Positions 2-63,006 of a stretch of DNA of 64,000 nt are shown here, piece after piece (within the stretch, counting starts at the first letter, position 1; each line of letters begins with the position of its first letter). The DNA is taken from the NCBI RefSeq assembly GCF_001281175.1, contig NZ_KQ440395.1, forward strand, positions 269,593 through 333,592. Direction: 5' to 3'. The position numbers were made by a program, and so were the translations under genes. This stretch comes from Apilactobacillus apinorum. GTDB taxonomy: Bacteria > Bacillota > Bacilli > Lactobacillales > Lactobacillaceae. The notes below the pieces were generated by a model. That model ran no database searches. It was not told where the DNA came from and saw only the letters and a program-made list of their open reading frames with translations.

Positions 2-3000
2 AATGCGAAGACGGCTTATACTCAAGCAGTTCGTGGAGATTCAACTACTACTTTGAGCGATCCACAAAGTCAAAATGCATTTAACGTTGGTAAAGAAGTT
101 GTTACCGGAGTTAGATTAGCTATTAACAAGGGAACTTTAGATAGTACTGCGAGTGCAGCTGAAACAGATGCATTCAATGCAACTTCACAAGCCTACCAAG
201 ATGCTAACAGTAATACTAAGAGTATGATTGACCACCCAAGTTTGGCATACACCACTGCATACAACTATGCTTTGAGAAGAGCTAATAATGAACGTAATGC
301 AGGTGCCCAAAGTTATGTTGATAATAATAATTATCAAGCTACTGACAAGACTTTAACCGCTGAAGCTCAAAACAATGGAGCTCAAGCTGCTAAAGCTGGT
401 ATTCAAGATCAAAAAGATAATACAGGTACCAATGCAAATACTGATACAGCATACCTAATTGGTTATAACTCTGTTTCAGGAGCAACTGATGGTGCCAATG
501 ATGCTAAACAAGGTAAGACTCAACAAACAGACTTTACTGGTAAGTCTCAAGTTTACATTGAGGGTTACAATGCTGGATTTACTGGAACACAAGACGGATA
601 CGCTGCTGGTCAAAATGATAGTCCAGTTTCCAGTTTTGATGGCAAGTCTCAAGCATACAAAGATACCTACAACAACGCATACAATGATGCAAAGACTTAT
701 GCAAATGCAGGTGCCGTTGATCAAATGAACGGATCCCAAACTCCATCCATTACAATCACTGCCGGTAATACTCTAGAACAAACTGCATATAATACAGGTA
801 AGGCTAACGCTAATGATGCTTACCAATACGCTCACGATAATGTTAATAACACTAATAAGTACACTTCCGGTACAGACAGTTATGACACATTCAATGGTGC
901 GCGTGATGGATTTACTGCTGGAAAACTCGGTCAATCCAGTGTGACTCCACAAGGTAGTACACTATATCAATCTGCTTACAATAAGGCTAGACAAGTTGCA
1001 GCTCAATCAACTATCAATGGGATCATCGCATTCCAAGCATCTAGCTTGAATCAAGATGCAACTATTTACACCCAAGCTTTAAATAAGCAAGATGTTGAAA
1101 GTGATGCCTTTGTTAACGCTTATCAAAAGACTAAGGCTGGATTCAATGCCCAAATGGCAAGTTCTACCGACTTATCATTATCAGATACTTCCGAGTCTTC
1201 ATACAATGCTGGAATTATAATGGCTAAAGACCTTCAACTAGGAACTTTAGATGCATCTAACAATCCAAGTCGTTCTAACTACCCTGGAACTGCTACTCAG
1301 ATTGCCGCATACTATGGAACTCGTGACGGATACAATGATGGTAGTCATTTCAATACAACAACTACAATGTACACTTCATTGGCTGTTCAAACTTATGCTT
1401 ACCAATATGCATATCAAAAGGCTAAGGCATTAGGAGCAACTAATGCTTTAACTGGAGCTAACACCTACATTCAAGCTGATGCGCAAAATACAGGTGTCTC
1501 TGCTGATGCACTAGCTCAACAAAGTGGTTATGCCGATGCTAAGGCAGGACATGATGCCTTTAATTCAGGATCTACTCAACCAACCACTAGCACTGAATCG
1601 GCTGCATATATTGTTGGATACAATGCTGCAAAAGATGCCCAAACAGGTGCAACTAACTTTAATGCTTTAACTAGTGATAAGGTTTCAAGTACTGTTACTG
1701 ACACCACCGTCAATGCTTCACATAACCAACTTGATGGTTTCAATGGTGCAAGGGATGGTTACCTAGCAGGAATTACAAGACAAACAGCATTGATTTTTGA
1801 TACTAGTTCTGGTCAGTCTAGAGCATATCAAGAACAATACAATGCAGCTTACAGTACTGCTAGATCAACCGCACAAAGTGGTGCTACTGCATGGTTAAGT
1901 TCATCATCAGTTGATCAAACTAATTGGACTCAAGCGCAAAAGAATGCTTTTGCATACGGGCAAACAATTGCCCAAACAGCTTACAACGATGCATTAAATA
2001 ATGGATCAGTGGTTAACGGAAATACTATTAATAATGATAGTAAGTACACTACTATTAACGACGCGCAAGATGCATACCAAGGTGCTGAAGCTGGATTTAG
2101 TGATGGTAAGTTAGGCAATAATAATGCGCCAAGTTCTATCACAAGTCGTCCTGTTTACTGGACTGCATACCAAAAGGCTCAAGTAGCTGCTGTTAATGCT
2201 GCTCAAACAGGTGTTGCCAACTTTGCTAAAGGAGATTTAGCTAGTGAAACTGCTAGTCAAAGTGATCAATTATCAGCTGCCCAAAACTACGGTTTTGCTC
2301 AAGCTCAATCTGGCTACAATGATCGTATTAGTGGTAATAGTAATGAAAACTCTAATAACGTTTCATACGTTTCTGGTTTCAACATTGCTAACGATGAAAT
2401 CAATGCAATTAATGATGCAGCAAATGCTAATACTAGCAACGCAACGACTACCAGTACGATTTACAACCAATCAACATACAATGCTGCATATCAAGCAACT
2501 GTTAATGGATATAACGATGGTAGTAAGAGTATTTCAACTAATCAACAACCAACTGATACAACTCAATCATTGGTTTACACTGATGCATACAATAAGGCTA
2601 AGTTAATTGGTAATTGGGCTGCTAGATCAGGTGCTATGATTTATAGCCAAGGTAGTTCAGCTGGATCTGACACTTCTGCTCAAGATATTCGTTCTAAGGC
2701 ATTCCACCAAGGTTATAGTGATGCGCAAACTGCATACAACAATGCGTTTACAGATTACACTACTACCCAAGGTGCGGGGTTAGATAATTCTACTCAAGCC
2801 TACAATGGTTATGCTGATGCAATTAAGGATGTTGTTTTAGGAAATGTGGCTAAACAATTAGGTAATATTTCTGTTTATAACGCTGCATATAATAGAGCAA
2901 TATCTGATGCACAGGCCATTACTAGAAAAGGTGCACAAGATTACTTTGCTACTAAGCAAAACCAAAACACTAAATCTAATACTGACCTATACAGTAAAGG

Positions 3001-6000
3001 TTATACAGATGCCGCTAATGCCTATGCTGCTGCGGTAGCAAGTCCAACAAATGAACCAGCTACTTATGTAGCGGGTAGCAACGCTGACGTTGTTTACTCA
3101 GGGGCTGCATTAGCCTTTAACGAAGTTGCAATTAATAACACTAACCTTGGAACTAACGGTAATACTAATCCTATCTTTATTGCTGCATATCAAAAGGCAA
3201 TCGGTGAAGGAAGCAGATATGCTAACCAAGGTGCGGTTGCATATGGTCAATTGAAGTTATTAAACGAAGCTGTTAATGGCTATGGTAATCAAGTTGGTTA
3301 TTCAGTTGCCATTGTTGCTGGTTACATTAATGCTCAATCCGCATATACTGAATCTCAGACCAATAAAAACGAAACTAACAATGGCAATTCTGCATATGAT
3401 CAAGCATACCAAGGTGCTGTTACTGCATTTAATGATGTTATTAATAACACTAATAAAGGTTCTGCTGGTCAAAGTGAAGTCTTTCAAGCTATGTACAACC
3501 GTGCATTAAGTCATGGTAAAGCATTGGCTAAACGAGGTGCCGTTGCCTTTGGAAATGGTAAAGTTCAGTTGACATCAACAGATACTAATGCTGCAATGTT
3601 TAATACTGGTTACACTGATGCTCAGTCAGCATATGCTGCTGCACAAAGTGATCCAAGTCAAAGCCAACAAAATGGTGGTACTGCAAGCAGTACCCAAAGT
3701 AACTACAACAATGCTTACTTAGGAGCTGCTGCTGCCTTCAATGATGTTGCTAATGGTACTACCACTAACGTGAAGAATGTTGATAGTCTAGTCTTCCAAG
3801 CAGTATACGCTAAGGCTTACGCTGTTGCTCAATCCAACGCCCAATCGGGTGCAACTGCTGCAATGCAATTAAGTCCAAATAAACAATCAGGAATGGATCA
3901 ATTAACTGGTCAAGCTGCTAAGAATGACTTCAGTCGTGGATTTGATGATGCAATTAAGGGTTATCAAGAAGCTCAAGCCAATATATCTGATTCTGCAAAT
4001 CACGGAACAACTTCTAACTTGGATAGTGCATACCGTGGTGCTGCTTCATCCTTCAATGATGTGATGAATAACACATTATATGCAAGTCAAAAAGCAGATA
4101 CCAGTCCGGTATATCAAGCTGCCTATACTAAGGCGCTAGCTGAAGCTAGATCGATTGCTAATAAGGCTGCTGCTGATTACTCTAAGGGTAAGGATTACAC
4201 AGACACCCAAGCAAATGATGCTGCAACTAAGGCATACACCGTTGGTCGTAGTGATGCAATCAAGGGTTATCAATCTGCTTTAGCTAACCCTAGTGATACC
4301 AGTTACGATAGTCAATCTAATGAAGATGAGGTCTTCAGAGGAACAGTTGATGCCTACACTGCCGTTTCTACACATAAGACTAGTGATGCAGGTAAGAGTT
4401 CAACAGATACTAACCAAGCCTACACTGCCGCTTATGATAAGGCCTTTGCTGAAGCAACTACCTTTGCTCAAAGTGGTGCAACCGACTTTGGTAATTCTGT
4501 GGACCTAAGTGTTGGTAGAAATAACCTAGGTACTAATCAAGCAGCTAAACTAGTTTATGCAGTTGGATACCAAGATGCTAATAATGGTTATCAAGCAGCA
4601 CAACAAAATCCATCAGATCAAAGTAACCACAGTTCAAATAGTAATTTGGATGAAGCATATAAAGGTTTTGCCGCTGGATTTAATGATGTAGCTGCAACTA
4701 GCTTGACTCATGCAACAACTGATAATAGTTCGGTATATCAAGCTGCATACCAACGTGCTGTTAAAGAAGGGAAAATTATTGCTACTAACGGTGCACAAAC
4801 TTCATTCTTAGGTGATGCAGCGGTTCAAAAAGCAATTGATGCATATGGTAATAACCAAGCAGCAATCAACATGTTTAACCAAGGTAAAGCTAATGCTCAA
4901 GCAGGTTATACTGCTGCTGAAAATAGTCCTGACGATTTACCAAGTCAGCATGCTACAGGTTCAGATTATGATGAAGCTTACAATGGAGCTGCTGCTGGAT
5001 TTAACGATGTTGCCAACCATTCAATTGGTAGTTCACAAACTGTAGATGCCAGCCCAGTATATCTAAATGCGTACAACAAAGCCGTTTCAGTCGGTCAAGA
5101 CTATGCAAGTAGAGGAGCGGCATACGCAAGTACTTCGAATGCTAATCCAAATACTGCTACCGCTAACATCACTCAACAGTCATTAATTAATGCTTTCAAT
5201 ACTGGTTATACTGATGCAGTTAATGGATACAACGAAGCAGTTCAAGATCCAAGCAAGAGTTTCTTGCACAATAGCGGATCAAATACTGATAAGGCATACT
5301 TGGGAGCTGCCGCCGGATTTAATGATGTTGCAACTGACTCGGCTAATGGTAAGAGTCGAGATATTAATAACGATCCAGTAAGTACGGCAGCTTACGATAA
5401 AGCTTATGCTGATGGATTGACTTACCAAACCCAAGGTGCAGCTGATGCTGCTAAGGGAACTAATAGTCAATCTGGTTTGGATAAACTTAACAACACTCAA
5501 GCTTACTATGATGCATACTATCGTGGTTACACAGACGCTAATAATGGATACACATTAGCTCAACAAAACATCAGTGATGGTGCAAACCACACTAGTTCTA
5601 ACAATGTAGATAGTGCTTATCAAGGTGCCGTTAACGGATTTAATGATGCGATGAATAATTCCAATGTCCATCAAGATGACCATGCCAACGTTGTTTATCA
5701 AAACGCTTACAGTCAAGCTAAGTCTGAAGCACAAAATATCATGAATCAAGCTACTGCAGACTTTAACGCTGGTTTGAACCAAACTACCCAAGCTCAATTG
5801 CAACCAAATGCAACTGATAAGTTGGTATACAATACTGCATATCAAGATGTGCAAACAGCATATCAATTGGTTCAAACTAGTGGTGTTGATGACAATAATC
5901 ATCAAACTGATAGCATTGCCGATCAAGAATATCGTGGTGCAATGGCAGCTTACCAAGATGTAATTAATGGAACACATAGTGCACACGCTAACACCGAAAC

Positions 6001-60399: not shown

Positions 60400-60482
60400 C
60401 GAATCATCTCCGAGATAAGTATGATAAAAATATATACATATTATATAATATGTGACTAAATTTACAAAATGAATCATTTAAA

Positions 60483-60511
60483 TTGAAAAAAAGTAATTTA
60501 ATTGTTAATAT
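60483..60511 (+). promoter_or_regulatory. Promoter of the candidate RNA at 60,518
   Basis: TTGAAA (60,483), 17 bases, TAATAT (60,506), inside a 455-base gap between divergent genes. Confidence 0.55.
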
Positions 60512-60517
60512 AGTAAT

Positions 60518-60700
60518 ATAAATATCAATGGAAGAGGTAATTTACCAAGCGATAGAATACTCTGATTATCCAATGCGCCGAGATACTTAGGTATCAAAGA
60601 ACACTACGAGGCGGATAAATAACAAATTACTGGATATTTAACATTTTTTCTTCCTTTGGGGCGCAGGGACTTGCTAGTGATAGTGCAGTCTCTATTTTTT
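60518..60700 (+). ncRNA. Candidate structured RNA with its own promoter and terminator (about 180 nt)
   Basis: Nested stems: AAATATC/GATATTT (60,520 and 60,633), GTAATTT/AAATTAC (60,537 and 60,624), TTATC/GATAA (60,566 and 60,614), CGCC/GGCG (60,576 and 60,610) and hairpin GATAC-TTAG-GTATC (60,582-60,595). GGAAGA in the first internal loop can pair with TCTTCC at 60,649, a pseudoknot-like contact. A terminator closes it. The build is riboswitch-like or 6S-like in size, but I match no known family. Confidence 0.45.
60666..60700 (+). terminator. Intrinsic terminator of the candidate RNA
   Basis: GGGACTTGC and GCAGTCTC pair imperfectly across an 11- to 12-base loop, followed by a T run. Confidence 0.7.
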
Positions 60701-60750
60701 TGCAATTATTTAATATATAATGAAGTTCCTTGGCAGGGGCAACATGAATT

Positions 60751-60788
60751 AGACGAATCTATCTTAGTTGATTAGATTCGTCTTTTTT
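60751..60788 (+). terminator. Second intrinsic terminator before the DeoB-like gene
   Basis: AGACGAATCTA and its full complement flank an 11-base loop, followed by T's. Between it and the terminator at 60,700 lies a short segment with GTTCC/GGGGCAAC that may belong to a second small transcript. Confidence 0.88.
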
Positions 60789-60792
60789 AATA

Positions 60793-60820
60793 TTGACAGC
60801 ATTAGTGTTTATGATATACT
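60793..60820 (+). promoter_or_regulatory. Promoter of the DeoB-like / nupC unit
   Basis: TTGACA (60,793), 16 bases, TATACT (60,815), 34 bases before the ATG. It is a near-consensus site. Confidence 0.78.
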
Positions 60821-60854
60821 TTTTTGTTAATGAAGAAATTAAGGAGGCACTAAA

Positions 60855-61670
60855 ATGACACACAAGCGAATGATTATTTTGGATATCGCTTCACTAGGTA
60901 TTGGTGAGGCTCCTGATGCTAATCGTTTTAATTCTGTTGGTGCCGACACATTAGGCCATGTTGCTGACAAAGGGCTTAGTGTTCCTAATTTGATCGATTT
61001 AGGATTAGGTAACATTCGTTGGGACAACGAATTAGCTACCGTTCCACAAAATGACGCACCCCGTGCTTTCTTTGGTAAAATGGTGCCTAACGTAGCTTCA
61101 TACAAGGGTAGTGCTACTTATCGTGAAATGTTCGATTATACTACTGATGCCCGTACTGTCTCTGTAATGGACTTAATGGCCGAACAGAATATGGATGTAT
61201 CAATTATTTCAAGCTTTACTAATTATCTAGAAAAACAGGACGAAATCTCAACGCTCCAAGTTCCTAGTGATAGTAAAGCTTTTGTTGAATTATCAGCTAA
61301 AATGAGAACACAAAAAGATGGTTTAATATACTGCCAAGTTCCAGAAGTTCACATTTTAGCAAAAGCTAGAAATTGTTTTGGATATGCGGAACAATTAAAC
61401 AAAGTAGATGAAACAATTGGTAAGATTGTTGAAAGACTTCGAGACACAGATTTATTGTTAATTTTATCGTCTGAAGCAATCGACCCATCAATGGAAATTA
61501 AGATTTCTCGTGAATACTTACCGCTATTAGTTTTTAATCCAAACCAAGAAGTCGGTAAATCACTTGGCATTAAGCGCTCATTGGGGGCAGTTGGAAATGC
61601 GATTGCAGCATATTTTGACTTAGATGAGGGGAAACAAAATAAGCCAAACTTTATTAACGAGGTTCTATAA
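60855..61670 (+). CDS. Phosphopentomutase-like protein lacking metal ligands (probable pseudoenzyme, 271 aa)
   Basis: AAGGAGG lies just before the ATG. The start (LGIGEAPDANRF, ADTLGHVADKGLSVPNLIDL, GLGNI) and end (DLLLI, REYLPLLVFNP, then FINEVL) align clearly with DeoB, which converts ribose-1-phosphate to ribose-5-phosphate. DeoB is normally about 390 residues, so about 120 are missing, fitting loss of the cap domain. The Mn ligands are replaced: DSVGIG reads ASLGIG (Ala12), TADHGND reads LSSEAID, the TDHTRE block reads KISRE, and KDTMTGHWE with the phospho-Thr reads KGSATYREM. Catalysis by the known mechanism is therefore unlikely. The frame is intact, with a strong promoter and binding site, so it is kept for some other role. 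nupC follows 88 bases on. Confidence 0.82.
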   Translation: MTHKRMIILDIASLGIGEAPDANRFNSVGADTLGHVADKGLSVPNLIDLGLGNIRWDNELATVPQNDAPRAFFGKMVPNVASYKGSATYREMFDYTTDARTVSVMDLMAEQNMDVSIISSFTNYLEKQDEISTLQVPSDSKAFVELSAKMRTQKDGLIYCQVPEVHILAKARNCFGYAEQLNKVDETIGKIVERLRDTDLLLILSSEAIDPSMEIKISREYLPLLVFNPNQEVGKSLGIKRSLGAVGNAIAAYFDLDEGKQNKPNFINEVL

Positions 61671-61691
61671 TAAAAGTAACTTGAAAGGGGT

Positions 61692-61701
61692 GTTGCGCAA
61701 C
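61692..61701. repeat. Short palindrome between the DeoB-like gene and nupC
   Basis: GTTGCGCAAC is a perfect 10-base palindrome in the 88-base gap. It may be chance or a minor operator. Confidence 0.3.
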
Positions 61702-61758
61702 TAAAATAAGCTATTTGTCACTATATTTTTTGTCGCAGAGAAAGGATTAGAATTAAAT

Positions 61759-63006
61759 ATGTATTTATTAGTTAATATCTTAGGAATTATTGTATTTCTA
61801 GGAATCGCGGTTTTATTTTCAAAAAACAAGAAGGAAATTAAATGGCGCTCAGTTATAACCGTTTTAGTAGTAAACTTATTGATTGCATACTGTTTAACAG
61901 AATTTTCATGGGGTCGTGCAGCTGTTGAAGCCGCTGCCAACGGATTCACAGCATTAGTTGAAGTTGCCTACCAAGGAATTGCATTTGCTTTACCAAGTTG
62001 GGTACACGTTAAGTCAATGGACTTTGTAACATCAGCACTTCTTCCTATTTTATTAATTGTTCCAGTGTTTGATATTTTAACTTACATTGGAGTCCTACCA
62101 TGGATCATCAAGTGGGTAGGTAAAGGATTGGCTTACATAACTGGCCAACCTAAATTTGAATCATTCTTCGCTGTTGAAATGATGTTTTTAGGTAATACTG
62201 AAGCACTTGCTGTTTCAACTCTACAATTAAAACAAATCTCAGCAGTTAGAAACGTTGTTATTGCTATGATGTCAATGTCATGTGTTACTGCATCAATCCT
62301 TGGTGCATATACACAAATGGTTCCAGGTCAATACGTATTGACTGCCGTTCCATTGAACATCTTAAATGCCGTTATTATTACTAGCATTTTAATGCCAACT
62401 ACTGTTACTCCAGAAGAAGACACTATCGCTAAATTAGGTAGTTCAGCTTCGACTGCAGAAGTGGCTGTTGGTGAAAACCCAGTAAACGATGAAGAAGCTA
62501 AGAAAGAACCATTCTTCTCATTCTTAGGTGATTCAATTCTAGGTGCCGGTAAATTAATCTTAATCATCACTGCTAATGTTATTGCATTCGTTGCTTTAGC
62601 TGCATTGATTGACAAGATCTTAGGCGCAATCAACCCTAGTTTATCTCTAGAACACATTCTAGGAATCATTATGTTCCCATTCGCATGGTTAATGGGTTCA
62701 GACGTACACACTGCTTTTGACTTTGCTCAAAACATGGGTACTAAGTTAGTAACTAATGAATTTGTGGTTATGGGTAAAGTATCTCCACACATCTCCTCAT
62801 ACGCACCTCACTACCGTGCTCAATTAACAGTCTTCCTTACTTCATTTGCTAACCTTTCTACAGTAGGAATGATTATCGGTGCGTTTAAAGGTATCGTTAA
62901 TAGAGAAGTAAACAACGCTATTTCCAAGAGTGTTGGTTACATGATTCTATCAGGTATTTTAGTATCACTAATGTCTGCTGGAATCGTGGGACTATTTGTT
63001 TGGTAA
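61759..63006 (+). CDS. nupC: NupC-type concentrative nucleoside transporter (CNT family)
   Basis: The 415-residue membrane protein matches the CNT family, which imports nucleosides with protons or sodium. Motifs include TSALLPILLIVPVFDILTYI, FESFFAVEMMFLGNTEALAV, the long core FPFAWLMGSDVHTAF, KLVTNEFVVM and LTSFANLSTVGMIIGA. About ten membrane helices fit the family. AAAGGA lies about 12 bases before the ATG, a little far. It shares a likely transcript with the phosphopentomutase-like gene, fitting nucleoside salvage. A short acidic loop (SSASTAEVAVGENPVNDEEA) lies at about residues 229-248. Confidence 0.92.
   Translation: MYLLVNILGIIVFLGIAVLFSKNKKEIKWRSVITVLVVNLLIAYCLTEFSWGRAAVEAAANGFTALVEVAYQGIAFALPSWVHVKSMDFVTSALLPILLIVPVFDILTYIGVLPWIIKWVGKGLAYITGQPKFESFFAVEMMFLGNTEALAVSTLQLKQISAVRNVVIAMMSMSCVTASILGAYTQMVPGQYVLTAVPLNILNAVIITSILMPTTVTPEEDTIAKLGSSASTAEVAVGENPVNDEEAKKEPFFSFLGDSILGAGKLILIITANVIAFVALAALIDKILGAINPSLSLEHILGIIMFPFAWLMGSDVHTAFDFAQNMGTKLVTNEFVVMGKVSPHISSYAPHYRAQLTVFLTSFANLSTVGMIIGAFKGIVNREVNNAISKSVGYMILSGILVSLMSAGIVGLFVW

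Follow-up and report, generated by a model that had tools for sequence, protein, structure and literature searches.

A DeoB-derived protein without cap and metal site, probably a pseudoenzyme, ahead of nupC in Apilactobacillus apinorum and other Lactobacillaceae

Pseudoenzymes are catalytically dead paralogues of enzymes that are retained for another role. A stretch of 64,000 nucleotides of Apilactobacillus apinorum (contig NZ_KQ440395.1, positions 269,593 to 333,592; hereafter the window) raises the question of whether one of its genes, a shortened relative of the phosphopentomutase gene deoB located directly upstream of a nucleoside transporter gene, encodes such a protein and, if so, which role it might have. 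The initial annotation had read it as a phosphopentomutase turned pseudoenzyme, still in frame and possibly acting as a sensor of nucleosides or pentose phosphates or as a partner of the transporter. In this work, we analyzed the protein, which we call psDeoB, together with its relatives, its gene neighbourhood and the non-coding elements around it (Table 1).

Table 1. Features of the psDeoB locus, in positions of the window
Feature	Position	Strand	Description
psDeoB (our name), paralogue of DeoB lacking cap and metal site	60855..61670	+	ATG start, 271 aa
Shine-Dalgarno sequence AAGGAGG	60841..60847	+	7 nt 5' of the psDeoB ATG; read from the sequence
nupC, CNT-family nucleoside transporter	61759..63006	+	415 aa; next gene after psDeoB, same strand
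Probable promoter TTGACA-16-TATACT, sigma-70-like	60793..60820	+	11 of 12 consensus positions; TG before the -10 box
Conserved psDeoB-nupC intergenic block, GGGGTGTTGCGCAACTAAAATAAGCTA	61687..61713	+	27 bases; found once in each of the 4 genomes searched
Candidate small RNA gene	60716-60788	+	TATAAT, 5 nt, 14-mer, spacer, terminator-like hairpin with T run
14-mer core of the candidate small RNA, TCCTTGGCAGGGGC	60727-60740	+	

The descent of psDeoB is clear. According to the available text of PMC2964296, phosphopentomutase belongs to the alkaline phosphatase superfamily, and psDeoB matches the corresponding Pfam core family (PF01676, Metalloenzyme superfamily) over residues 6-257 with 46.3 bits against a cut-off of 24.3. 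The gathering cut-off being exceeded, it is a member of this family by descent, although the metal site that gives the family its name is lost. Three NCBIfam DeoB models match psDeoB in two stretches, each below its equivalog cut-off (119 of 256, 102.5 of 341.2 and 89.9 of 254 bits; the second pair of values is that of TIGR01696, E 2.2e-29). The match to the phosphopentomutase of Bacillus cereus (3m8w) is likewise in two pieces, residues 3-77 of psDeoB aligning with 9-82 of the chain and residues 93-269 with 218-396, and all nine significant matches among solved structures were phosphopentomutases (E 1.5e-20 or better; the others, 0.7 or worse). Like DeoB (TIGR01696/NF003766; 3m8w), psDeoB has the GxGEAPDA...DTLGH N-terminus, the LGLGN motif and the C-terminal REY-x-P, and it keeps the core on both sides of the cap, so that the ends and core of the enzyme are recognisable, as the initial annotation had stated. 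Predicted structure models were low in confidence, the mean pLDDT of AlphaFold being 31.6 with the window protein and its relative from L033, and 36.2 when one full DeoB from a viral contig was included as well.

What psDeoB has lost was examined by aligning 11 full DeoBs with 57 short proteins, which come from as many of the 82 carrier genomes described below. From every aligned short protein the same uninterrupted block is missing, which corresponds to residues 92-211 in the full DeoB of L025; its 120 residues agree with the initial estimate. We take this block, by reference to the B. cereus enzyme, to be the cap domain, which would bind the sugar phosphate in DeoB, and since a single shared block of this presumed identity is missing, the loss would amount to a clean domain excision. 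We further take D13, T/S85, D286, H291, D327, H328 and H339 to be the active-site positions in the numbering of the B. cereus phosphopentomutase. The six metal ligands are all present in 11 of 11 full DeoBs, which have T (seven proteins) or S (four) at position 85. In the window protein, by contrast, the seven positions read A, G, H, K, S, E and I; every catalytic residue is thus replaced, and the claim that the metal-binding and phospho-threonine blocks had been exchanged stands. Among the 57 short proteins, D13, D327 and H339 are never retained, D286 is kept in two, H291 in three and H328 in 13; counted per protein, 41 have none of the six ligands, 14 have one and two have two, never more. 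The phospho-acceptor column 85 holds T in none of the 57 and S in eight, in no case after GKD. psDeoB therefore lacks four features that define DeoB, namely an equivalog score, the metal ligands, the GKD[TS]M phospho-acceptor and the cap (as far as the missing block is the cap), which places it outside the DeoB enzymes. To judge from its sequence, psDeoB, having neither cap nor metal site nor phospho-acceptor, cannot carry out the DeoB reaction as it is known.

These losses are shared by a whole family. A search for relatives gave some match in 45 of 60 genomes, with the short form in 16 of the 16 genomes of the genus Apilactobacillus and in three further ones (G028, G030 and G035). Applied at E<=1e-6 to 397 Lactobacillaceae genomes, a profile built on the short form detected it in 82 of them, belonging to eight genera, and for this reason the change is neither recent nor local to a strain. 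The frames encode 266 to 346 aa and are open in all 82 carriers, with no internal stops, which speaks against the frame-shifted copies in most strains that the initial annotation had named as a refutation. At the level of the order, nine of 295 genomes gave a match at E<=1e-36, all of them Lactobacillaceae. The nearest named relative, a protein 91% identical to psDeoB, comes from the Apilactobacillus MAG L033, which is probably one and the same as G007. In a tree of the core domain the short form is a single split on a long branch (modest support, 0.70), which suggests that it probably had one origin followed by wide divergence. No description of a DeoB-like pseudoenzyme or of a lactobacillus DeoB paralogue was found in the open-licence literature.

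On mobile elements, no psDeoB was found among viral contigs, and one further plasmid and phage search for it gave no match. The plasmid and phage matches listed (20 of 32, 13 of 13 and 10 of 14 records) were two-piece or partial matches of the ordinary DeoB type, or unannotated. A short-looking match on a Limosilactobacillus fermentum plasmid turned out to be a 1200-base phosphopentomutase gene beside deoC and deoD and was discarded. Separately, positions 2001-3179 of a viral-classed contig (L137, IMGVR_UViG_3300036831_000092) contain a DeoB-like gene of full length, whose identity to the query is 48%.

Within the genus, psDeoB is under strong purifying selection. Out of 120 genus pairs, the 26 with dS<0.65 had dN/dS ratios of 0.020-0.088, the upper value being that of the window protein and its nearest relative; over the 62 pairs with dS between 0.05 and 1.5, where dS comes near saturation, the median was 0.146 and the maximum 0.39. 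NupC from the same genomes had a median of 0.096 over 119 pairs. Across genera psDeoB diverges fast, with a mean distance of 0.63 versus 0.24 for NupC. The initial annotation had proposed that purifying selection without activity would support a new role, and its first half holds. Like pseudoenzymes in general, psDeoB is a homologue of an enzyme that has lost the catalytic residues and is maintained by purifying selection. That it represents a pseudoenzyme family derived from DeoB and kept for a role, as first proposed, appears well supported by homology, by the lost active site, and by frames that are open in all carriers and retained under selection. The clade would be a clean natural example of an enzyme core retained after loss of lid and active site.

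Which metabolism surrounds this protein was approached through the complete deoB gene. In the genome of the window, the DeoB model finds psDeoB alone and no complete deoB, the second copy whose presence the initial annotation had wished to see checked. The model was applied to 19 genomes and exceeded its cut-off in six, in all of which a gene of the PNP_UDP_1 family, presumably deoD, lies directly behind deoB; the phosphorolytic pathway is therefore a separate unit. A nucleoside hydrolase match was obtained in 19 of the 19 genomes. That of the window has one nucleoside hydrolase gene, outside the window, and a single PNP_UDP_1 gene, which we take to be that of the general MTA/SAH nucleosidase. 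As a complete deoB is missing, a hydrolase is present and the PNP_UDP_1 protein is presumably a nucleosidase, the organism probably cleaves nucleosides hydrolytically and releases free ribose, a route in which a phosphopentomutase would be unneeded. In a wider count, made by hand from the matches of the short-form profile, 39 of the 82 carriers show no second, full-length DeoB match and 43 have both forms; psDeoB is therefore not merely a helper of DeoB. The same count makes misannotation relevant, as psDeoB taken for a phosphopentomutase could introduce a false ribose-1-phosphate step into metabolic models. Ordinary deoB, deoD, deoC and iunH genes are described, in the available text of two reports, for two other lactobacilli (PMC3146418, PMC4972977).

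The gene neighbourhood points to nucleosides. The nupC gene that follows in the window, as initially annotated, encodes a protein with the N- and C-terminal Pfam CNT domains above cut-off, and matches TIGR00804 with E 5.4e-88, yet with 295.7 of 442 bits. Gene order was examined in 52 of the 82 carriers (two overlapping sets of 19 and 42 loci), with neighbour labels verified by Pfam on one member each. In 50 of the 52 genomes nupC is the next same-strand gene after psDeoB, three of these having a small predicted ORF of 71-80 codons in between. The typical run, on one strand, consists of psDeoB, nupC, often a xanthine/uracil-type permease, and iunH for a nucleoside hydrolase. Among the 42 loci, iunH occurs downstream on the same strand in 32, the permease (PF00860) downstream in 23 and rsmG in 26. 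The psDeoB clusters thus differ from those of full-length deoB, which have PNP_UDP_1 behind in six of six cases. Known neighbourhoods of deoB and nupC do exist: G080, G128 and G153 each have a full-length deoB and a nupC on the same strand, within some 2 kb. In Lactobacillus buchneri, nupC (0602), a permease (0603) and rihB (0604) were all lowered under oxygen according to the available text of PMC4521753, in which gene 0601 goes unmentioned. At locus L095, each of the genes nupC, permease and iunH is divided between two frames. In G012 (L102), the genes after nupC are unlike those of the other genus members shown, and the nucleoside hydrolase match at G012:C10:103910-104625 is likewise broken into two frames.

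Two genomes depart from the rule. In G071 the order is SGNH, psDeoB, rsmG, parA, iunH is not adjacent, and no nupC was found in the genome at E<=1e-60, with psDeoB kept; in G129 the order is psDeoB, iunH, rsmG, and nupC lies on another contig. Conversely, at 11 of the best-scoring 30 nupC loci, one of them that of G129, there is no psDeoB-like sequence within 1.5 kb, and NupC therefore works without psDeoB in other lineages. The proposal that psDeoB is a partner of the transporter is thus supported by gene order but not as an obligate pairing, and given G071 and G129, NupC is unlikely to be its sole partner.

Taken together, we find it somewhat more probable than otherwise that psDeoB is a non-catalytic accessory of nucleoside uptake or hydrolysis that arose from a DeoB duplicate, a role suggested by its retention at the head of uptake and hydrolysis genes. 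A DeoB duplicate of the Lactobacillaceae would have lost its cap domain in one excision and, along with it, its two-metal site and its Thr/Ser phospho-acceptor motif, and would then have been retained as a non-catalytic core protein heading a same-strand run for nucleoside uptake and hydrolysis. There it might act in the cytosol as an accessory or regulator and tune nucleoside import or hydrolysis by binding either a pathway protein (NupC or IunH) or a ligand derived from nucleosides. It is tempting to speculate, although we regard this as a doubtful extension, that soluble, non-catalytic proteins of the psDeoB type form a new class of regulators, acting on CNT-type import or on the coupling of import and hydrolysis, built on a capless DeoB core and present in part of the Lactobacillaceae, often without the phosphorolytic DeoB pathway.

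Loss of the sugar-phosphate lid, and lack of conservation at the old site, where the divergent g43 group differs from the rest, lead us to prefer an accessory that binds a protein over a small-molecule sensor. Still, a remodelled core pocket could bind a nucleoside, a base or a sugar and signal to the transporter or the hydrolase. Besides the nucleoside gene context, such a ligand sensor would be in line with D10, close to the old active site, which is invariant in all short proteins whereas 11 of 11 full DeoBs have V there, and with the TREY-x-P segment, which is retained outside g43. Against it, the cap that presumably binds sugar phosphate in DeoB is gone from every short protein, which in particular makes the pentose-phosphate sensor of the initial annotation less likely; and the g43 group has lost most of GEAPDA and REY as well, so that a common pocket is doubtful. 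On these grounds we consider a sensor unlikely.

More improbable is an enzyme re-purposed around a new active site, either metal-free or with other ligands. Conserved polar residues are certainly available for it, D10, E91 and D185 in all short proteins and R219 and E220 outside g43. However, E91, D185, R219 and E220 are common to ordinary DeoB and for that reason may be structural; G15, H35, G50, E91, D185, D210 and P223 are in fact shared by DeoB and at least 95% of the short proteins. In addition, no new cluster of metal-binding type was recognised by eye in the sequence.

A role outside nucleosides, tied to the SGNH or rsmG-parA neighbourhood, was suggested by the G071 arrangement and by the comparison of distance matrices, from which L095 and L096 were left out. 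psDeoB and NupC co-vary with r 0.86 (partial 0.68 given rsmG), and SGNH distances track those of psDeoB about as well as NupC distances do (psDeoB-SGNH 0.64, NupC-SGNH 0.74; psDeoB-parA 0.38). For psDeoB and IunH the co-variation is weak, at 0.20, a value that 36 of 500 permutations attained. As SGNH matches the NupC signal and IunH is weak, these distances give no evidence of a contact of psDeoB. The SGNH gene, moreover, is on the opposite strand and is absent from the upstream ORFs shown (at most three) in all 13 g16 and g21 loci, two of which end at psDeoB, and nupC is the usual next gene as described above; we therefore hold such a role to be quite improbable. The shortened protein without catalytic residues might also suggest a decaying pseudogene or an assembly error in a single genome, which is very improbable in view of the 82 open frames, the genus dN/dS far below 1 and the 91% identical protein in L033. 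Finally, the homology to DeoB would fit a phosphopentomutase that is still active, a reading to which the missing full set of metal ligands, phospho-acceptor motif and cap, and the scores below three equivalog cut-offs leave hardly any room.

The non-coding elements of the locus were analyzed as well. The promoter, which had been called intact, has a nearly complete consensus, but matches of that kind are barely above chance in this stretch (seven found versus a mean of 5.5 in shuffles). Twelve of the 13 genus loci aligned share its TTGACA, and the -10 box varies. The binding site likewise called intact, left unspecified in the initial annotation, could not be identified. Between psDeoB and nupC, the last 20 bases of the conserved block (TGCGCAACTAAAATAAGCTA) are identical in 12 genus loci aligned but not in L018 and L111. 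The block has a G run resembling an anti-Shine-Dalgarno sequence, followed by ATG or TTG, CGC, AAC and TAA, which could possibly form a mini-ORF of three codons. In other genera, several loci show a G-rich block unlike this one a short distance 3' of the psDeoB stop. For the RNA of this gap five pairs were predicted, none of which changed on both sides, and no Rfam family reached its gathering cut-off within the window, six weak matches in 60450-61800 being all far below.

Upstream of the promoter lies the candidate small RNA gene. Its 14-mer core occurs in 165 of the 397 Lactobacillaceae genomes, from 22 of 40 genera, with one copy each among the matches listed; the pattern read backwards gave one match in the 397. 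At 13 loci of other genera the surroundings differ, a similar -10 box precedes the 14-mer and in most a hairpin follows. The 14-mer was considered as a leader of the psDeoB operon and rejected, because it occurs in genera without psDeoB and in other surroundings; in G144 and G368 the 14-mer and psDeoB lie on separate contigs, and none of the g16 and g43 genomes searched contains the 14-mer. Below the gathering cut-off, STnc40 overlaps the L006 copy (32.4 of 45 bits, E 0.09) and RefA9 matches the opposite strand of the window (18.9 of 49 bits); a literature search with variants of the 14-mer string returned a sole, unrelated match. The element looks like a free-standing small RNA gene, independent of psDeoB, and may be the more surprising object of the two. 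Further upstream, a stretch at 60520-60705 (+) carries a terminator-like hairpin (AGGGACT...AGTCTCT, followed by a T run); absent from the other loci compared, it is found in small part in L018 and is shared with the closest relative, L004.
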